This document shows positions 4,634-36,128 of a stretch of 44,620 bases of DNA, piece after piece. Numbering within the stretch: position 1 is the stretch's first letter; each line of letters begins with the position of its first letter. Origin of the DNA: Clostridia bacterium (GTDB lineage: Bacteria > Bacillota > Clostridia > Oscillospirales > Acutalibacteraceae); contig JAFSEF010000128.1 in NCBI GenBank assembly GCA_017435865.1, positions 1 through 44,620 on the forward strand. Direction: 5' to 3'. Below the pieces are notes generated by a model. The model was not told where the DNA came from, did not search any database, and saw only the letters and a list, made by a program, of their open reading frames with translations. Position numbers and translations under genes: made by a program.

Positions 4634-4677
4634 TATAAAATATACAGTTAATGCTGTCTATTTATGGAGGTGCCGAC

Positions 4678-4932
4678 ATGACAGACAAAACAAGAGAAAT
4701 TGAAATCGGATACAAAAACGAAGCAGAAGTCCGTAAAACAGTTGTAACCATTTACAATGCTTTGATCGAAAAGGGCTACAACCCTGTTAGTCAGCTCGTT
4801 GGCTACATCTTATCTGAAGATCCCACTTATATTACTACTCATAATAATGCACGCGGTCTTGTACGCCGTATTGACAGATTTGAGCTTCTTCAGATGATGC
4901 TTCAGGATTTCATAAAGAAGAGCGAAGAGTAA
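4678..4932 (+). CDS. ireB: IreB family regulatory phosphoprotein
   Basis: 84 residues, the family's usual size (formerly DUF965). The core VVTIYNALIEKGYNPVSQLV followed by GYILSEDPTYITTHNNARG is diagnostic. In Enterococcus IreB is a cytosolic protein phosphorylated on N-terminal threonines by the PASTA kinase IreK and controls cell-wall stress and cephalosporin resistance. Here Thr2 and Thr5 lie in the same place and could be the phosphosites (inference). The start is ATG 4678 behind GGAGGT; an upstream in-frame ATG at 4651 has no site. No PASTA kinase or ruvX gene is nearby; the next genes are an unknown ORF and alaA. Confidence 0.93.
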   Translation: MTDKTREIEIGYKNEAEVRKTVVTIYNALIEKGYNPVSQLVGYILSEDPTYITTHNNARGLVRRIDRFELLQMMLQDFIKKSEE

Positions 4933-4951: not shown

Positions 4952-5245
4952 ATGCCTAAGACTGAAAAACTGCTTACCTACAAAGGCAAGCCTCTGGTTC
5001 GTTGCGGCAAAACGCTGTATTACGGCAATAGCTATGAACCGTTTGTAATTATGATGCAGGTTGTTACAACAAAAACTGTCGGCGATATGGAAATTGCAGA
5101 CAAAGTTTTTGTGCAGTTGTTGAATACGGATCCCTCTGTCCGTCCTCGCGATGCGATTGTTAAGAAGAGTGAGAAAAAGGGGCTTTATGCAGCAATGGAC
5201 ATTGCATCTATCTGGCTTGAAAGAGCTTTGAATCCGACAGCATAA
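4952..5245 (+). CDS. Conserved small protein of unknown function
   Basis: 97 residues, soluble, no signal peptide or membrane segment, no motif I recognise. The sequence begins MPKTEKLLTYKGKPLVRCGK and has a likely two-layer alpha/beta pattern with strands at residues 7-12, 20-25, 31-38 (FVIMMQVV) and 43-55. The start at 4952 has AAGGAGAA 10 bases upstream. It sits 19 bases after ireB and 18 before alaA, so the three are probably co-transcribed from the promoter at 4605. Codon use resembles its neighbours, so it is very likely a real gene. Confidence 0.8.
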   Translation: MPKTEKLLTYKGKPLVRCGKTLYYGNSYEPFVIMMQVVTTKTVGDMEIADKVFVQLLNTDPSVRPRDAIVKKSEKKGLYAAMDIASIWLERALNPTA

Positions 5246-6575: not shown

Positions 6576-7322
6576 ATGTTAAAGTTGTTTGAGAAAAATA
6601 AACTGGTTTTTTCTTTGATTCTGATATTGGTATATGTTGTCAGCTTTTCCCTTGCTGATGCTTTTTCGGAGCAACAGGGGATTCCTAAACTATTTACTGT
6701 GATTGTCGGTGCTTTGTTGTCAACAGCAGTGATGCTTTTTGTTTTGAAGAATCATTTGTCTGCGTATGTCGGTCTCGCAAAAATACGCGGAAGTGGTCGC
6801 AACTATTTATATTTTATTCCTTTGATACTGCTGTCTGTTGTCAATGTTGTATCTTTGATGATCATCGGTGAATCTTTAAAAATTGATTTGCAAACATTGC
6901 TTGCTGCTGTGAGTATGATTTTTGTGGGTGTGCTTGAAGAAATTATTTTTCGAGGTTTTTTATTCAGGAGTCTGTGTGAACAGAAAATTTCAACTGCTTT
7001 TGTGATTTCTTCATTGACGTTCGGAATGGGGCACATTATAAATCTGTTGTCGGGAGCCCCTTTGTTTGATACATTGATGCAGATTATTTATGCTTCGGCG
7101 GTCGGTTTTTGTTTTACCGCTTTGTTCTACTGCTGTGACAGTATTATTCCTTGCATTGTTTCACATATTGTTGTCAATGCCTCCGGTGTATTCATAGATT
7201 CTTATTCAAGAACTGAACTGATTGTGATTACGATTGTTCAGACAGGCATCGGGTTATTATACGGATTGTGGTTGTTGCGTACTCATAAGAATACTGCTTC
7301 TGAGGTGATGAAGAATGTATAA
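6576..7322 (+). CDS. CPBP family intramembrane metalloprotease
   Basis: 248 residues with about seven or eight hydrophobic segments. The three CPBP (Abi/Rce1-like) motifs are present: EEIIFRGFLFRSL (EExxxR), FGMGHIINLL (FxxxH) and HIVVNASG (HxxxN). The family cleaves or processes membrane-bound peptides and is often tied to bacteriocin immunity or signalling; no bacteriocin gene is visible here. ATG 6576 is used because GTGAGG lies upstream; the longer frame begins inside the alaA terminator. I saw no clear promoter in the short gap behind that terminator. The gene overlaps the next one by eight bases, so the two are translationally coupled. Confidence 0.88.
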   Translation: MLKLFEKNKLVFSLILILVYVVSFSLADAFSEQQGIPKLFTVIVGALLSTAVMLFVLKNHLSAYVGLAKIRGSGRNYLYFIPLILLSVVNVVSLMIIGESLKIDLQTLLAAVSMIFVGVLEEIIFRGFLFRSLCEQKISTAFVISSLTFGMGHIINLLSGAPLFDTLMQIIYASAVGFCFTALFYCCDSIIPCIVSHIVVNASGVFIDSYSRTELIVITIVQTGIGLLYGLWLLRTHKNTASEVMKNV

Positions 7323-9186
7323 AGTTTCGGTTCCTGTTATGAATGCAAATGTTACTGCAGAGAACAGAGAGTCTGTTCTTGCTCATATTCAGCGTTTTGA
7401 TGCAGAACGAATTTTTCTTGCTCTTGATTGTTATGAAATTGATATAGACAAAAAGACTGCAGCTTTAGCAGCACTTGCTGAAAATGCAGCATATTTTAAA
7501 TCACATGGCTTTGAAGTCGGTGCGTGGATATGGACATTCTGGATTCGTTCCGGGAATGATTTCCGTGATATGCGTACAATCAAAGGCAAAGATATTGCAG
7601 GCCACAAATGTCCGTCAGATGAAGACTTTGTTCGTTTTGCCTGCGATTATATTCGCGATATTGCAAAATGCGGAATCGATCTGATCATGTTTGACGATGA
7701 CTATCGATATGGATTTCAATCTGATGCAGCTGCATGTCTGTGTGACGGGCATATTGCACGTATCAATAAGCTCACCGGTGTAAATTGTACACGCGAAGAA
7801 CTTGAAAACTACATCACAACCGGTGGTAAAAATAAGTTTCGCGATGCATTTTTACAGGTCAACGGCGATTTGTTTCGTGATTTTGCTGTCAGTGTAAGAA
7901 AAGCAGTGGATACGGTTGATGTCAAGATGCGGGTTGGTTTTTGTGCTTGCATGAGCTCATGGGATCTTGATGGTGCAAATGCTTACGAAACAGCAAAGTT
8001 GCTTGCAGGGAATAACAGACCCTTTGTACGTCTTATAGGGGCTCCTTACTGGGCTGCTGTAAACGGTTGGGGAAATCAATTGCAGGATGTTATTGAGCTT
8101 GAAAGAATGGAAAGTACCTGGACAAAAGCTGATGATATTGAAGTGTTTTCTGAAGGAGATGCTTACCCGCGTCCGCGTTGCTGCACACCTGCAAGTTATG
8201 TTGAGGGATTTGATACCGCATTGCGTGCTGCAGGTTGCACGGACGGAATTCTGAAATACGGGATCGACTATATTTCAAAACCGGATTATGAAACAGGTTA
8301 TGCGGTCTTTCATGAACGCAATCGGAAGTTGTATAAAGAAATTGACAAATACTTTTCGAGTAAACAAAGTACAGGCATTCGTGTATATGAAAGTATGAAA
8401 AAGATTGCCGATTCCGTAACACCGTCGGCTGTGAATGACAGTATTGATATTGAGAATATTTTCTTTTCAAAAGCGGCAAGAACTTTGGCATACAACACAA
8501 TTCCGACTGTCTATGATGGCACGGGTGTTTGCGGAATTGTCTTTGATGAAAATGCAAGTAATTTGCCTGTGACCGCTCTTGAAAACGGTTTGATTCTTGA
8601 CATTGCAGCAGCTGAAATTCTGATGCAAAAAGGAATTGATGTAGGTATTTCAGATATTGGTCAAGCTGTGCAGAATGTGAACAAAGAACGATTCCTGCAT
8701 GACGGGAATAAGATCAGTGCTAACGGTTGCATTGTGTATGATGTCAGGTTAAAAGCAAATGTTCAGGTTCTCAGCACTGTTTCTGCTGCGGATCAGGAAA
8801 TCCCGTTTTCATTCCGCTATGAGAATGAAAACGGAAACCGTTTCTTTATTCTGAATATCAATACAAGAATCGGATCTGACAGATTGTTGAAACAGTATGC
8901 CCGCAGCAGACAGTATGCAACACAGACCCGGTGGTTGTGCGGAAAGAAGCTTCCTGCCTATTGCTACGGGAATCCAGCTTTGTACATGCAGACAAAAGAA
9001 TCTGAAGATGCACTCGCTGTCGGTCTCTGGAACTTTTTTGCAGACATTGCTGTGAACCCTGTTGTTGAACTTGCACGGAATTATAATGAAATTATTTTTA
9101 TCAACTGTAAGGGAAGTCTTGATGATGATAAGGTTTATTTGCAAGACATTCCTGCATACGGTTTTGCAGGGTTTGAAGTAAAATAA
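7315..9186 (+). CDS. Putative TIM-barrel glycoside hydrolase, unassigned family
   Basis: 623 residues, cytoplasmic (no signal peptide). Residues about 1-345 have the alternating pattern of a beta/alpha barrel: VGAWIWTFWI, CGIDLIMFDDDYRYGF (acidic cluster D127-D129), MRVGFCACMSSWDLDG, and EVFSEGDAYPRPRC with Glu280 in a place typical of a catalytic nucleophile at the end of a strand. The C-terminal half (about 390-623) looks like the trimerisation-like and beta-sandwich domains that follow the barrel in GH42-like enzymes. I cannot place it in a numbered family, so the activity is inferred from layout and context. It overlaps the CPBP gene and is followed by a strong terminator, so the pair form one unit. 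Confidence 0.6.
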   Translation: MYKVSVPVMNANVTAENRESVLAHIQRFDAERIFLALDCYEIDIDKKTAALAALAENAAYFKSHGFEVGAWIWTFWIRSGNDFRDMRTIKGKDIAGHKCPSDEDFVRFACDYIRDIAKCGIDLIMFDDDYRYGFQSDAAACLCDGHIARINKLTGVNCTREELENYITTGGKNKFRDAFLQVNGDLFRDFAVSVRKAVDTVDVKMRVGFCACMSSWDLDGANAYETAKLLAGNNRPFVRLIGAPYWAAVNGWGNQLQDVIELERMESTWTKADDIEVFSEGDAYPRPRCCTPASYVEGFDTALRAAGCTDGILKYGIDYISKPDYETGYAVFHERNRKLYKEIDKYFSSKQSTGIRVYESMKKIADSVTPSAVNDSIDIENIFFSKAARTLAYNTIPTVYDGTGVCGIVFDENASNLPVTALENGLILDIAAAEILMQKGIDVGISDIGQAVQNVNKERFLHDGNKISANGCIVYDVRLKANVQVLSTVSAADQEIPFSFRYENENGNRFFILNINTRIGSDRLLKQYARSRQYATQTRWLCGKKLPAYCYGNPALYMQTKESEDALAVGLWNFFADIAVNPVVELARNYNEIIFINCKGSLDDDKVYLQDIPAYGFAGFEVK

Positions 9187-30549: not shown

Positions 30550-31665
30550 ATGATTCATGATTGTATTGATTGTTTGCCTACTGTTTTTGCCATCGGTAAT
30601 GAATATCAGATTATTATTCCTTTTACAAAAGCGGCTGTGGTTTGGGCAAAGGTCGGAGATTGTTTATACTATGATGACTCTAACGGTATCCTTCGCTCTA
30701 ATATCAATATACACAGAATTCACATACCCATGAACGTGCTTGACGAAGCAAGGGAATATACTATCATTTATCGCATTATGACAGACCGTAAACCTTATTT
30801 TCCTGTCAGTGAAGATGAACAGAGTTTTACTGTGCCATTCAGACCTGTAATGAGTGAAAATATCAATATTTATCTTTTGTCTGATGCACACAATCTTGAA
30901 AAAGAACCTATTGAAGCCGGACGTTTCTTCGGAGAAGATATTGACCTGCTTGTTCTCAATGGCGATATCCCGAATCACAGCGGAAGTGTTGAGAATTTCT
31001 ATTCTGTATACCGCATTGCAGCTGGGATAACGAATGGAACATGTCCTGTGGTATTTGCACGCGGTAACCATGATACACGCGGTATTTATGCAGAAGAATT
31101 CTGCCGTTATACTCCTACCTGTAACGGAAAAACTTATTACACATTCAGACTCGGTTCCTTGTGGGGTATGGTTCTTGATTGCGGCGAGGATAAGAGAGAT
31201 ACAAATGCCGAATACGGGAATACAGTTTGTTTTCATAATTTCAGACTGCAGGAAACACAATTTATATATGATGTAATAAAAAACAGTGAAACAGAATACG
31301 CAGCAGACGGAATCAAAAACAGAATCGTTATCTGTCATATTCCGTTTACAAGAATCTACAAACCACCCTTTGACATAGAGCAGGAATTGTATGCAGCATG
31401 GACACGGCTTATGAGGGATCATATCAAGCCGCAATTGTTGCTGTTTGGTCATCAGCATTGTGCAAGAATGAGTTATCCCGGTGATGATATGGATCAACAG
31501 GGGATGCCTTGTCCTGCTGTTATTGCAGGTTGGCCGCTTAAAGGTGATGGGGATGAATTGTCAAAATACTGTGGTGCTGCAATTACTTTAAATCCTGATG
31601 GTGCAAAAATTACATTCAATACAAATGATGGTGAAGTATTGCAACAAGCTACACTTGATTTTTAA
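30550..31665 (+). CDS. Metallophosphoesterase with N-terminal beta-sandwich
   Basis: 371 residues, no signal peptide. Residues 1-95 look like a fibronectin-type/purple-acid-phosphatase N-terminal sandwich, ending before the catalytic core. The core has the calcineurin-like motifs LLSDAHNLE, LLVLNGDI, VFARGNHDTRG, IVICHIPF and LLFGHQHCARM. This two-part layout is shared with purple-acid-phosphatase-like and phosphodiesterase proteins; the substrate is unknown. The start ATG 30550 follows AAGGAG by nine bases; the reading frame upstream of it overlaps yfcE and lies before the promoter. Confidence 0.85.
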   Translation: MIHDCIDCLPTVFAIGNEYQIIIPFTKAAVVWAKVGDCLYYDDSNGILRSNINIHRIHIPMNVLDEAREYTIIYRIMTDRKPYFPVSEDEQSFTVPFRPVMSENINIYLLSDAHNLEKEPIEAGRFFGEDIDLLVLNGDIPNHSGSVENFYSVYRIAAGITNGTCPVVFARGNHDTRGIYAEEFCRYTPTCNGKTYYTFRLGSLWGMVLDCGEDKRDTNAEYGNTVCFHNFRLQETQFIYDVIKNSETEYAADGIKNRIVICHIPFTRIYKPPFDIEQELYAAWTRLMRDHIKPQLLLFGHQHCARMSYPGDDMDQQGMPCPAVIAGWPLKGDGDELSKYCGAAITLNPDGAKITFNTNDGEVLQQATLDF

Positions 31666-31714: not shown

Positions 31715-31743
31715 TTGACAATGTTATTGATTTGATGTAAAAT
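31715..31743 (+). promoter_or_regulatory. Promoter of the pseudokinase gene
   Basis: -35 TTGACA (31715-31720), 17-base spacer, -10 TAAAAT (31738-31743). Confidence 0.75.
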
Positions 31744-31789
31744 ATGCAAAATACCCGTTTGCAAAGGAGTGTCCTGTACGGCAACGATT

Positions 31790-33586
31790 ATGCAAGGAGA
31801 TCATGTTTTCGGAACATGGCTCATTCAGGAAAAAGAATATGCTACCGGAGGTTATTCACTGTATTCTCTGACCTCTGTCGAAGACAGTACGCAAAGAGCT
31901 TCTTTGTGGGTCGTTGATTTTCCTGCATCGCAGGAGGATTTATTTGTGTTGTGCGAAAACGGAATGTCGCAGGAACAAGCAGGTGCATTCTTCAGACAAG
32001 CAGCCGATGATTTTGCAGAGAGCCTGCTCAGATCTGATGCTGAAACTGCTTGTGCATCTTTGTTGACCGCTGATGATGTTTCGGTTGAGTCAACAGAAGA
32101 CGGAATGTTGCACACTGTATATGTACTCACACAGGAAGTAAAGCCTTTGGATAACGGTAAATATAACCGCAATTTATCTGTTGAAGATACCGTACGTCTC
32201 GGCAGTTTTTTGTGCGATGCAATTCTTCATATCAAAGACAACAATCTGCCACTGCGATTGCTGACAATTGATAACATTTTTGTTGCTGCAGACGGACATT
32301 ATCTGCTCGGTAGTTTCGGCAGTGATCTTGATAACAGATTTCAGTCACCTGAAGAACACCGTGGTGAGACAGCCGTATATAACGGTGATGTTTGTTCTGT
32401 CGGAATTATCATGTACACAGTGCTGAATGATTTTTGTGTGCCGTTGCTGCCCCGTGGATATTCTGATTATACGGAAGACGAGATTGCAGATGCGGTACAG
32501 AGCAGACACGCAGGTGTTCCGTTGCCACCTCCGTATCACTCCAAAGGAGCTTTGACCGGAGTTATTCTCAAGGCAAGTGCTTATAAAGCCAAGGCAAGAT
32601 ATGCATCTGTTTCTGAATTGAAATCAGCTCTTGATGTTTTGCGATATGATCGACAAGCACCAAGATCTGTTAAAGAAACGGTTGCGGAAACAGAAGTCTC
32701 ATGGACTCGTAATCCGCAGATTAAAAAAGTAATCTGCTCTGTTGTAACTGTGATTGTAATTGTGCTCGTTTCATCGGTTATTCTGCATTTCTATGATAAA
32801 TCTCAAAACAAGCCGATTGTCCCGAATGAACCTGCAGCAACGGCCCCCGGAGTGTCCAATATATATATTGATTCTTTTGGTACAAAGCCGACCGGAAATG
32901 ACTATGTGGCAGTTGCGCCTACACAAGAGAATGTACAGACTGTTACAGATGTCAATCATACTGATAATTCACTTGAATATCCTGCGTCATTTTTTTCTCA
33001 GATTGCAGCGTATCATTCCGGTGAATACTATGTTTCAGGTTTTCTTGAGCAGGATGGTGAGGTGAAAAAGACTGATCTTGCTATAACGAATGCAAATTCC
33101 ATTTATATGACGAGTGATATTGACGGTGCTGAAGTCGGTTTTCTTCGTACAGGTGATGGAACTGTATATTTGATTCATCCCGCAGGCAAAGCATATATTG
33201 AATTGAATAAAACTGTTTTGCGTTTGTTGGGTATGAATACAGATACTTTTGATTCTGTTGCCAATATTGACGGAATTGTTTTCGGAGATGTTCCTGCTGA
33301 TAAAATAGAAAAAGTAACATTCCGCGATCAGGAATTGATTGCGTGCACGTATTGCTTTGACAGCGGCAAATCCGAGGTTTTCTACCTTGATGAAAATGGC
33401 AATGTGCGTTTTGTCGAATCATATAATGCCGACAAAACTCTTGCAAACGTATTGTCTGTTGATATCCTTACTGCTGATGTTCCTGCAGAAATGGCAGCAG
33501 TTCCTTCTGACTTTACACAGTATTCCGGTATGAGCGGACTTTTGCAATTTGCATCCGGTTTGATGCCGCAGAATACATCTGAATAA
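31790..33586 (+). CDS. Membrane-anchored pseudokinase with extracellular LolA-like domain
   Basis: 598 residues from ATG 31790. Residues 1-285 align by pattern to a Ser/Thr kinase: glycine-loop region ATGGYSLYSL, beta3 strand ASLWVVDFP, catalytic loop RLLTIDNIFV, SFGSD for DFG, QSPEEHRG for APE, and GDVCSVGIIMYTVL for subdomain IX. The key residues are lost: beta3 Lys is Trp40, HRD Asp is Leu157, DFG Asp is Ser175; Asn162 is kept. So it should not catalyse phosphotransfer. One membrane helix (about 314-335) is followed by an acidic linker and an extracellular domain (about 390-598) with strands like SGEYYVSGFLEQDGEVKKT, LolA/DUF4412-like. Start is unclear: the ribosome binding site AAAGGAG (31763-31769) is 20 bases from this ATG but 8 bases from an in-frame ACG at 31778. 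Confidence 0.82.
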   Translation: MQGDHVFGTWLIQEKEYATGGYSLYSLTSVEDSTQRASLWVVDFPASQEDLFVLCENGMSQEQAGAFFRQAADDFAESLLRSDAETACASLLTADDVSVESTEDGMLHTVYVLTQEVKPLDNGKYNRNLSVEDTVRLGSFLCDAILHIKDNNLPLRLLTIDNIFVAADGHYLLGSFGSDLDNRFQSPEEHRGETAVYNGDVCSVGIIMYTVLNDFCVPLLPRGYSDYTEDEIADAVQSRHAGVPLPPPYHSKGALTGVILKASAYKAKARYASVSELKSALDVLRYDRQAPRSVKETVAETEVSWTRNPQIKKVICSVVTVIVIVLVSSVILHFYDKSQNKPIVPNEPAATAPGVSNIYIDSFGTKPTGNDYVAVAPTQENVQTVTDVNHTDNSLEYPASFFSQIAAYHSGEYYVSGFLEQDGEVKKTDLAITNANSIYMTSDIDGAEVGFLRTGDGTVYLIHPAGKAYIELNKTVLRLLGMNTDTFDSVANIDGIVFGDVPADKIEKVTFRDQELIACTYCFDSGKSEVFYLDENGNVRFVESYNADKTLANVLSVDILTADVPAEMAAVPSDFTQYSGMSGLLQFASGLMPQNTSE

Positions 33587-33761: not shown

Positions 33762-34637
33762 ATGAAAAAGTTTATCGCAATTCTTATGTCTCTGATTATG
33801 GTGCTTGCTTTTGCTGCATGTACAGACACCTCTGAAGATCCTACCAACGCTTCCGATGCTCTTACCGACGGTAATGCAGCTGAAGATGTATCTGCTGAAG
33901 AAGCTACTGATGCTGACAAAGTTACTTTTACAGTAGGTTTTGATGCAGAGTTCCCGCCCTTCGGATTCATTGCCGATGACGGTTCTTACGACGGATTTGA
34001 CCTTGCTGTTGCTAAGGAAGTTTGTGAACGTCTTGATTGGGAATTTATTGCACAGCCCATCGATTGGGGTTCAAAAGATGCTGAACTTGCAAACGGCACC
34101 ATCGATTGCATCTGGAACGGTTTCACAAAGAATGGCCGTGAAGATCTTTATACCTGGACTGATGCTTACTATGACAATTCCATCGTTATGGTTGTAAGAG
34201 CTGACGACGGTATCGAAACTCTTGCTGATCTCGAAGGTAAGAATGTTATCACCCAGGCTGCTTCTTCCGCACTTGATGCTCTGAATGCAGAAAAAAATGC
34301 TGAACTGCTTGCTTCTTTCGGTGAACTGATTGAAACTGCAGATTACAACAATGCTTTCATGGAACTCGGCATGGGCACTGCTGATGCAATCGCTGTTGAC
34401 TACGGTGTAGCTCTTTACAATCTTGCAGCTCAGGAAGAAGGCACTTATGTTATCCTTGATGAAGCTGTTTCTTCCGAACAGTATGCTATCGGTTTCCTTC
34501 TTGGCAACACTGAACTTGCTGCTACCGTTTGGGAACAGGTTGAAGCTATTGCTGCTGACGGCACCATGGCAGAAATCGCTGCAGCTTACGAAGAAAAAGG
34601 TCTTGTAACCGACAGCCTTGTACTTCTTGCTGACTGA
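33762..34637 (+). CDS. Amino acid ABC transporter substrate-binding lipoprotein
   Basis: 291 residues. Lipobox LAFAAC with Cys20, then an acidic, low-complexity linker (about 21-50). The SBP_bac_3 domain starts VTFTVGFDAEFPPFGFI, with GYDGFDLAVAKEVC-like DGSYDGFDLAVAKEVC, the binding segment IWNGFTKNGRED, and the hinge DAIAVDYGVALY. This is the polar amino acid (Gln/His/Arg/cystine) family; which one cannot be told. Codon use is strongly biased (GCT, GAA, CTT), suggesting high expression. ATG 33762 follows AGGAGGA. A weak terminator follows and probably limits transcription of the permease and ATPase genes. Confidence 0.93.
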   Translation: MKKFIAILMSLIMVLAFAACTDTSEDPTNASDALTDGNAAEDVSAEEATDADKVTFTVGFDAEFPPFGFIADDGSYDGFDLAVAKEVCERLDWEFIAQPIDWGSKDAELANGTIDCIWNGFTKNGREDLYTWTDAYYDNSIVMVVRADDGIETLADLEGKNVITQAASSALDALNAEKNAELLASFGELIETADYNNAFMELGMGTADAIAVDYGVALYNLAAQEEGTYVILDEAVSSEQYAIGFLLGNTELAATVWEQVEAIAADGTMAEIAAAYEEKGLVTDSLVLLAD

Positions 34638-34657
34638 TTTTAACTTTCTGTTTATCG

Positions 34658-34690
34658 GGGTGGGATCCGAAGATTCCGCCCTTTCTTTTT
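34658..34690 (+). terminator. Intra-operon attenuating terminator
   Basis: 8-bp stem with two G-T pairs, GGGTGGGA (34658-34665) / TTCCGCCC (34674-34681), then TTTCTTTTT. It separates the binding protein from the permease. Confidence 0.7.
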
Positions 34691-34701
34691 AGGAGGACGC
34701 T

Positions 34702-35352
34702 ATGGAACTGCAAACCATGGTAACAATGCTTGCAGAAGGATTTCTTAAATCTGTTGCAATCTTTTCATTGACGCTCATCGGTTCGTTGCCGTTGGGACTT
34801 CTTGTTGCATTCGGCAGAATGTCAAAATTCAAGCCTTTGCAGCTTGTTGTCAAGTTTTATATTTCTGTTATGCGCGGCACACCGCTGATGTTGCAATTGA
34901 TGGTTGTCTTTTTCGGACCGCATTATTTGTTACATATTCAGACCGGCTCTGATTACAGATTTGTTGCTGTTATCATCGGCTTTGTGTTGAATTATGCTGC
35001 ATATTTTGCGGAAATCTACCGCGGTGGTATTGAATCTATGCCGGTAGGACAGTATGAAGCAGCAGAGATCATGGGGTATTCTAAAGTTCATACCTTTGTA
35101 CGTATCATTCTTCCGCAGGTTGTAAAACGCATTTTGCCTTCTATTACAAATGAAATGATTACACTTGTCAAAGACACGTCTCTTGCATTTGCAATCTCCT
35201 ATGCAGAAATGTTTACACTTGCCAAGAAAATTGCTTCTTCACAGTCCACTTTGATGCCTTTTGTAATTGCCGGTGTGTTCTATTTTATTTTTAACTATGT
35301 TGTTGCATTCATAATGGAACGCGTGGAAAAGAAAATGTCTTATTATCGCTGA
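34702..35352 (+). CDS. Amino acid ABC transporter permease
   Basis: 216 residues with about five membrane helices, HisMQ/GlnP family. It has the conserved VMRGTPLMLQLMVVFFGP in the second part of the membrane domain, and the EAA coupling loop EAAEIMGYSKVHTFVRIILP that contacts the ATPase. A single permease gene implies a homodimeric channel. ATG 34702 has AGGAGG upstream, immediately after the attenuating terminator. The ATPase gene follows after 11 bases. Confidence 0.93.
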   Translation: MELQTMVTMLAEGFLKSVAIFSLTLIGSLPLGLLVAFGRMSKFKPLQLVVKFYISVMRGTPLMLQLMVVFFGPHYLLHIQTGSDYRFVAVIIGFVLNYAAYFAEIYRGGIESMPVGQYEAAEIMGYSKVHTFVRIILPQVVKRILPSITNEMITLVKDTSLAFAISYAEMFTLAKKIASSQSTLMPFVIAGVFYFIFNYVVAFIMERVEKKMSYYR

Positions 35353-35363
35353 GGAGGTTACGT

Positions 35364-36128
35364 ATGAACGACATTCTTACAATGAAAAACATACAGAAAT
35401 CCTTCGGCGATCTCGAAGTTATCAAGGATATTTCTGTTTCCATAAAACAAGGTGATGTTTTATCGATCATTGGGCCGTCCGGTGGCGGTAAGTCTACATT
35501 GTTACGTTGTGCTGCCATGCTTGAAACGATCAACGGGGGATCTATTGCTTACGGTGACAAACAAGCCGCATGGACAGATGATAACGGTAAAGTTGTTTAT
35601 GCCAAAGGCAAACAGATGAAAGAAATCAAGAACTGTTTCGGACTTGTATTTCAGAATTTTAATCTCTTTCCGCATTTTTCGGTTCTGAAAAATATTACGG
35701 ATGCACCTTTGCGTGTACAGAAGCGGAATAAAGATGAAGTGATGGCTGAAGCCGAAGTTTTGCTGGACAAAATGGGGCTTCGTGAAAAAGCGGATGCATA
35801 TCCTTATCAATTGTCCGGTGGTCAACAACAGCGTGTTGCCATTGCCAGAGCACTTGCACTGAAACCGGAAATCCTGTTTTTTGACGAACCGACCTCCGCT
35901 CTGGATCCCGAGCTGACTGCTGAAGTGTTGCGTGTCATCCGTCAGTTGGCTGAAGAAGATATGACAATGGGCATTGTTACACATGAAATGAATTTTGCAA
36001 GACTTGTTTCGGACCATCTGATTTTTATTGATGGCGGAATCATTGTAGAACAGGGAAGTCCTGACGAAGTTTTGGGTAATCCTAAAATGGAAAGAACCAA
36101 AGCGTTTCTCAATAAATTGGAACAATAA
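35364..36128 (+). CDS. Amino acid ABC transporter ATP-binding protein
   Basis: 254 residues, GlnQ/HisP-like. Walker A GPSGGGKST (about 33-41), Q-loop FGLVFQNFNLFPH, signature LSGGQQQRVAIARA, Walker B ILFFDEPTSALDPE, and the switch His in IVTHEMNFAR. A 20-residue insertion after Walker A (DKQAAWTDDNGKVVYAKGKQ) is seen in many Firmicutes members of the family. It energises the permease and completes the three-gene transporter. ATG 35364 follows GAGGAGG. Confidence 0.95.
   Translation: MNDILTMKNIQKSFGDLEVIKDISVSIKQGDVLSIIGPSGGGKSTLLRCAAMLETINGGSIAYGDKQAAWTDDNGKVVYAKGKQMKEIKNCFGLVFQNFNLFPHFSVLKNITDAPLRVQKRNKDEVMAEAEVLLDKMGLREKADAYPYQLSGGQQQRVAIARALALKPEILFFDEPTSALDPELTAEVLRVIRQLAEEDMTMGIVTHEMNFARLVSDHLIFIDGGIIVEQGSPDEVLGNPKMERTKAFLNKLEQ

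Follow-up and report, generated by a model that had tools for sequence, protein, structure and literature searches.

What can a membrane protein with the fold of a protein kinase still do once its catalytic residues have gone? The question is raised by one gene in a 44,620-nucleotide stretch of a Clostridia bacterium of the family Acutalibacteraceae (assembly GCA_017435865.1, contig JAFSEF010000128.1; hereafter the window), which an earlier note, made from the letters alone, had read as encoding a membrane pseudokinase. The open reading frame lies on the forward strand where that note had placed it, from an ATG at 31790 to a stop ending at 33586, and encodes 598 amino acids. The comparisons below indicate that the protein is a pseudokinase crossing the membrane once. 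The role most likely to fit it, put forward tentatively and as a whole at a little under even confidence, is that of a non-catalytic co-receptor modulating an intact PASTA kinase. The receptor or scaffold role proposed earlier is plausible from the anatomy of the protein.

A Kinase-like Fold Joined to One Membrane Helix

Residues 5–287 (31802–32650, forward strand) form the kinase-like domain by profile and alignment evidence. A profile built from the family's three members (the window protein and two orthologues, from genomes G014 and G021) matched StkP in a PDB set at E 9.1e-11. Against the Pfam hidden Markov model Pkinase, the G014 orthologue scores 32.8 bits, above the cut-off of 31.7, and the G021 orthologue 27.7 bits, below it. 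The window protein alone scores weakly: its genome, G000, has 10 Pkinase matches at E up to 1e-3, and it is not one of them. It matches PknB_PASTA_kin of NCBIfam at E 4.7e-5 and, by phmmer against the PDB set, StkP at E 1.4e-4; in Pfam it gives a weak match to PK_Tyr_Ser-Thr (E 0.067) and one to an unrelated membrane-protein family (E 0.028). Chance resemblance to a kinase was rejected on the strength of the family-profile match and the G014 score. On the sequence evidence, the kinase fold claimed earlier is present, and it is Hanks-type and PknB/StkP-related.

Hydropathy likewise bears out a single membrane helix. A strong hydrophobic segment near residues 311–333 (32720–32788, forward strand), flanked N-terminally by basic residues, is found in all three members. 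A weaker hydrophobic window at residues 201–220 of the window protein, unseen in the orthologues, falls in αF of the kinase fold. The kinase-like part would lie inside the cell and the C-terminal part outside.

The Active Site Is Lost Well beyond Three Residues

The residues were read from an alignment of 43 kinase-like rows, three from this family and 40 others (at least two of which repeat another row). The assignments made earlier proved exact: the β3 lysine is Trp40, the HRD aspartate Leu157, and the DFG aspartate Ser175, and both Asn162 and the APE glutamate (E188) are retained, along with R156, F176, G177, D200, and R270. Among the other 40 rows, the β3 lysine is present in 38 (the remaining two were unread), the αC glutamate in 38, the HRD aspartate in 36, and the DFG aspartate and the asparagine of HRDxxxxN in every one. 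All three catalytic residues are indeed gone, but the losses are wider than had been described. The αC glutamate has become Ser78 and the lysine of HRDxK Thr159, no glycine-rich loop was seen, and most of the activation loop is missing, with 8 residues from DFG to APE in the three family rows versus 18–24 in the other 40.

These changes fall in three segments of the forward strand: the β3 segment, residues 36–47 (31895–31930; Trp40 codon at 31907–31909); the catalytic-loop segment, residues 154–165 (32249–32284; Leu157 codon at 32258–32260), which carries Thr159 and the kept Asn162; and the stretch from the SFG motif of Ser175 to the SPE motif of E188 (32312–32353), where the activation loop is nearly absent.

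Both orthologues show the same losses and not an intact set of lysine and aspartates. W40, S78, L157, and T159 are identical in them; variation at the lost positions is confined to that of DFG, which is serine in the window protein and cysteine in both orthologues. The catalytic-loop motif reads LRL in the window protein and RRL in the orthologues. At the sequence level, a pseudokinase is recognized by a kinase fold that lacks at least one of the β3 lysine, HRD aspartate, and DFG aspartate; here all three are lost in 3/3 members. Because the Lys-Glu pair, the catalytic and metal-binding aspartates, and the glycine-rich loop are lost, and a tryptophan stands in the place of the lysine, the inner fold should neither hold ATP-Mg nor transfer phosphate. 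With the activation loop hardly present, the protein would also not be an activatable enzyme.

The Rebuilt Site Is Conserved

The full-length orthologues, in G014 (44% identity) and G021 (45%), are the only ones found. No full-length homologue was detected outside the genus in 98 genomes searched, nor in 398 genomes of the family, the latter being an even draw from a larger group with at most three candidates scored per genome. A single-sequence scan of a contig collection found no relative, and a profile scan found two loci, those of G014 and G021. In G001, the upstream neighbor of the gene was recognized at 63% identity in a match that stops 189 bases short of where the contig ends; the part of this end that can be read carries another short open frame and no start of the pseudokinase gene.

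Among the three members, 143 of the 283 residues of the kinase-like domain are invariant. The top-scoring 12-residue windows are the β3 segment and the catalytic-loop segment, with 11 of 12 residues invariant in each; the next best, at several places, have 10. A hypergeometric test for the two segments gave 1.1e-5, a guide value only, because the segments had been picked to cover known motifs and the three sequences, being related, are not independent. Both segments are also conserved in active kinases; the point here is that new residues have been fixed in them.

Selection was estimated from the G014/G021 pair, as synonymous sites are saturated in comparisons with the window. In the kinase-like domain, the nonsynonymous rate (dN) is 0.064 and the synonymous rate (dS) 0.80, a dN/dS of about 0.08; the ratio is 0.085 in the outer domain and 0.28 in the membrane and linker part. 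The shared losses, this purifying selection, and the conservation of the degraded motifs together uphold the pseudokinase reading, and the protein is almost certainly maintained as such. No other stretch of 12 residues in the domain is conserved as well as these dead motifs, a pattern that at the sequence level strongly marks a functioning pseudokinase. Since the active site has been rebuilt and then kept almost unchanged, the protein probably signals by contacting other proteins.

The Outer Domain Belongs Largely to the Genus

Residues of about 396–592 (32975–33565, forward strand) form an outer domain related to separate surface-type proteins, which it matches in 25 of the 26 genus genomes by our row count. 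These paralogues make up a genus family on lipoprotein-like, dockerin-like, and longer repeat-bearing proteins (labels by eye; loci including L098–L106), some with a lipobox or dockerin-like repeats, also read by eye. An open frame of 24,195 residues in one genome of the genus was dismissed as an artefact. Beyond the genus, one genome of the same family (G033) gave two matches, and in an order-level sample 4 of 394 genomes, including that of the window, gave matches at E up to 1e-4. By this distribution, the domain represents a family found largely within the genus.

The earlier note had called the domain LolA-like and proposed that it senses a lipid or cell-wall ligand. The domain is there, and its profile A3 had LolA as the sole hit in the PDB set, a weak one at E 0.074; Pfam DUF4412 was matched by 1 of 30 members (E 0.0013). 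The LolA match was not repeated with the wider profile A6, however, and hhalign gave 0.3% probability against E. coli LolA. Three distant bridging proteins matched no Pfam family except for one chance-level hit. The LolA label is therefore weakly suggested by sequence, and the proposed ligand is equally weakly indicated.

A Possible Co-receptor of the PASTA Kinase

Matches to Pkinase (PF00069) number 10 in G000, 9 in G014, and 5 in G021, the pseudokinase being counted in the last two genomes and not in G000. Absences from these three drafts are provisional, as they are 85%, 97%, and 97% complete, respectively. Of the five in G021, one is an intact PASTA kinase and one the pseudokinase described here. 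Two more have PASTA domains, one of them together with Big_2 and the motifs HRN and DFA, the other with HRG and DFA; the fifth has an HGD motif and is read as aminoglycoside-phosphotransferase-like. One intact Hanks kinase, the PASTA kinase, was thus found in this 97% complete genome together with three degenerate kinase-like membrane proteins, and it is on this ground that the protein is proposed to serve the PASTA kinase as a co-receptor or modulator. The outer domain would sense a change outside the cell. That change would shift how the inner fold contacts a partner, perhaps with the rebuilt pocket or the retained C-lobe as the binding surface, and the altered contact would raise or lower the partner's output. 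The intact PASTA kinase is the likeliest candidate for this partner, although its identity is the more doubtful part of the proposal.

The nearest working model, by analogy, is taken to be CD2148 of Clostridioides difficile. It too comes from a Clostridia species that also has a PASTA kinase, and it too is a degenerate kinase of the Hanks type that has a membrane segment but lacks PASTA domains; its D and N residues are replaced by serine (PMC9674922). When CD2148 is lost, the phosphorylation of CwlA that depends on PrkC rises more than 4-fold (PMC8262956). The effect runs through PrkC, and its authors leave the mechanism open, one of their hypotheses being contact with PrkC, direct or via divisome proteins (PMC8262956). 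That CD2148 is a pseudokinase is a possibility that its authors cannot exclude (PMC9674922). The two proteins, compared by description only, differ in that CD2148 is described with a Ser-Gly-Asn rich segment among its parts and with no mention of an outer domain of the present type (PMC9674922).

Several observations weigh against a PASTA kinase co-receptor. The family is present in 3 of the 26 genus genomes, the window's own counted, and PASTA kinases are widespread among genomes that lack it. G000 and G014 hold further Hanks kinases with intact motifs, which are alternative partners. The juxtamembrane segment has 0 invariant residues of 23. The gene is linked to neither the PASTA kinase nor IreB. 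A search with the window protein retrieved clostridial kinases without PASTA domains, about 22%–32% identical over the matched domain parts, and not the PASTA kinase of its own genome. The nearest relatives found by sequence are such kinases (for example L003 and G000 C98, the latter 28% identical over residues 5–290); they differ from the pseudokinase in having intact catalytic residues and a DFG-APE spacer of 21 residues versus 8. In a tree of 41 rows picked for likeness to the family, plus two others, the three members form one group (100/100), whose branch is 6.67 changes per column long, and are placed among the non-PASTA kinases, their exact place being unsettled on so long a branch.

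The earlier note had also pointed to IreB, a PASTA-kinase substrate encoded in the window, as a possible tie to Ser/Thr kinase signaling. The IreB gene is there (4651–4932; Pfam E 2.5e-30), about 27 kb from the pseudokinase, but this linkage was rejected because the two genes lie on different contigs in both G014 and G021. A general link to Ser/Thr signaling is indirectly strengthened all the same, since the only intact Hanks kinase found in G021 is the PASTA kinase.

Alternative Roles and Relation to Known Pseudokinases

The main rival to the co-receptor role, though a rather unlikely one, is a membrane scaffold that recruits or anchors proteins via the rebuilt pocket or the C-lobe and has no tie to a kinase, as EssB/YukC does. 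EssB/YukC is a Firmicutes membrane pseudokinase in which the three motifs, the glycine-rich loop, and the activation loop are degraded and which acts by scaffolding (PMC12599244), and the window protein shows the same losses. EssB is part of the type VIIb secretion system (T7SSb). The window protein has a different outer domain, and in Pfam, searched at E up to 10, it gave no YukC hit. No secretion genes were seen among the few neighbors checked, and no search was aimed at type VII genes.

Far less probable is a kinase fold that has acquired new chemistry or a new ligand in its remodeled pocket, as in SelO or SidJ. Such a use would fit the conservation of the remodeled segments, which is the highest in the domain, but the corresponding lysine and aspartate, the glycine-rich loop, and the αC glutamate are all lost here.

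Slightly less probable again is a substrate of the PASTA kinase that, once phosphorylated, recruits a protein with an FHA domain. MviN works in this way: PknB phosphorylates this membrane pseudokinase, and FhaA binds it (PMC12599244). FHA matches were found in G000 (two, of which one is marginal, E 7.6e-4) and in G014 (three). However, the juxtamembrane segment, a possible place for such phosphorylation sites, has no invariant residue, and G021, which holds the pseudokinase, gave no FHA match at E up to 1e-3 in its 97% complete draft; for this latter reason, recruitment of the MviN kind is unlikely. The comparison with MviN holds in kind, but the FHA mechanism misfits G021. Like the present family, MviN/ActPs3 proteins have three degraded motifs, a deletion in the activation loop, and a link to the membrane (PMC12599244); the window protein, with its spacer of 8 residues, has such a deletion. 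Bulky aromatic residues fill the ATP pocket of MviN/ActPs3, although W789 of MviN is not equated with the β3 lysine position, and the group is mainly actinobacterial and acts via an FHA protein (PMC12599244). The mycobacterial MviN motifs VALT and Lsidhpsr (PMC12599244) are not those of the window protein, which has ASLW and LRLLTIDN.

A decaying kinase gene heading for loss, which the narrow distribution and the lower identity to the window than that of flanking genes (42%–44% versus 66%–96% by BLAST) might suggest, is hardly tenable given the low dN/dS and the shared substitutions, with frame, promoter-like site, and gene order intact at all three loci, and it is effectively refuted for the G014/G021 pair.

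GLW pseudokinases resemble the family in having leucine or tryptophan at the β3 lysine (W40 in 3/3 members), a replacement thought to prevent ATP binding (PMC12599244). They differ in being mainly proteobacterial and in their HRD motif, which has become GLW in them (PMC12599244) and LRL or RRL here. Membrane pseudokinases with three degraded motifs are already known, as ActPs3, GLW, and EssB (PMC12599244). By its motifs, the present family is distinct from GLW and MviN, and its outer domain is different. The main text of PMC12599244 has no occurrence of Clostridia, Oscillospir-, Ruminococc-, or LolA, and no description of the family was found among the literature matches listed, as titles and abstract starts, from a coverage that leaves out most subscription journals.

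Other Degenerate Kinases of the Genus

A second pseudokinase, the A4 family (L129–L153; own-genome copy L008/L131), gave strong matches in 25 of the 26 genus genomes; G003 has only a weaker, different protein in its place. Its β3 lysine is arginine in 25 of the 25 copies read, its HRD aspartate glycine in 24 and asparagine in one (L140), and the asparagine of HRDxxxxN is threonine, alanine, or serine. A PASTA domain was confirmed in both copies scanned, and the N terminus looks zinc-ribbon-like by eye. Being nearly genus-wide, the A4 pseudokinase may matter more than the one in the window. The drafts G005 and G016 have only two Pkinase matches each, one PASTA-type kinase (by list place and length) and the A4 pseudokinase, so that the smallest kinome in the genus may consist of one living kinase and one dead one.

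A third degenerate kinase (L007, L049, L066/L110, and L117) has HRN and DFA motifs with the lysine kept. It occurs, among the Pkinase matches examined, in G000, G001, G014, and G021, and PASTA and Big_2 domains were confirmed in the G021 copy.

The Gene and Its Neighborhood

The translation start may be placed at ATG 31790, the start first chosen, at GTG 31769, or at ACG 31778. The frame stays open upstream as far as GTG 31769, and a gene with this start would span 31769–33586 on the forward strand. ATG 31790 is unconserved, the aligned residue being asparagine in both orthologues; GTG 31769 and ACG 31778 align across all three loci, and ACG 31778 lies 8 bases past a purine-rich stretch, AGGAG or GAGGG. 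Directly upstream is a promoter-like site, TTGACA-17-TAAAAT (31715–31743, forward strand), with TTGACA-17-TATAAT at the aligned place in both orthologues. Such sites are frequent in the window (27 found versus 18.1 expected), and the argument therefore rests on the conservation of the site and not on the match.

A calcineurin-like metallophosphoesterase gene (30550–31665) lies upstream and an amino-acid ATP-binding cassette transporter (33762–36128) downstream, both on the forward strand. The transporter consists of a solute-binding protein (33762–34637, by Pfam), a permease (34702–35352), and an ATPase (35364–36128), the last two named by eye. An operon with the metallophosphoesterase is disfavored because a separate promoter-like site precedes the pseudokinase gene at each of the three loci. 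Both orthologue loci share the order of a phosphodiesterase-like gene on the other strand (by eye), metallophosphoesterase, pseudokinase, and transporter. BLAST identity of these neighbors to the window is 66%–67% for the phosphodiesterase-like protein, 68%–69% for the metallophosphoesterase, 74%–82% for the binding protein, 92%–96% for the permease, and 91% for the ATPase. Elsewhere in the window, two open reading frames (4952–5245, 97 amino acids; 7315–9186, 623 amino acids) gave no Pfam match at E up to 0.1.

Implications

Bacterial pseudokinases are described as largely unexplored experimentally, and their share in some bacterial kinomes reaches 67% (PMC12599244). By our count, pseudokinases outnumber intact Hanks kinases by 3 to 1 in G021, and a genome of this type would be a simple system for studying the effect of dead kinases on a living counterpart. 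It is conceivable, if unlikely, that in this ruminant-gut lineage of Clostridia dead kinases can carry most of the Hanks-type signaling. One intact PASTA kinase would then be the sole catalytic partner of three pseudokinases in the membrane that act as its co-receptors, of which two have PASTA domains and the third the outer domain specific to this lineage. Each would report a different surface cue, and the rebuilt pocket of the protein described here would be a conserved docking or ligand site.
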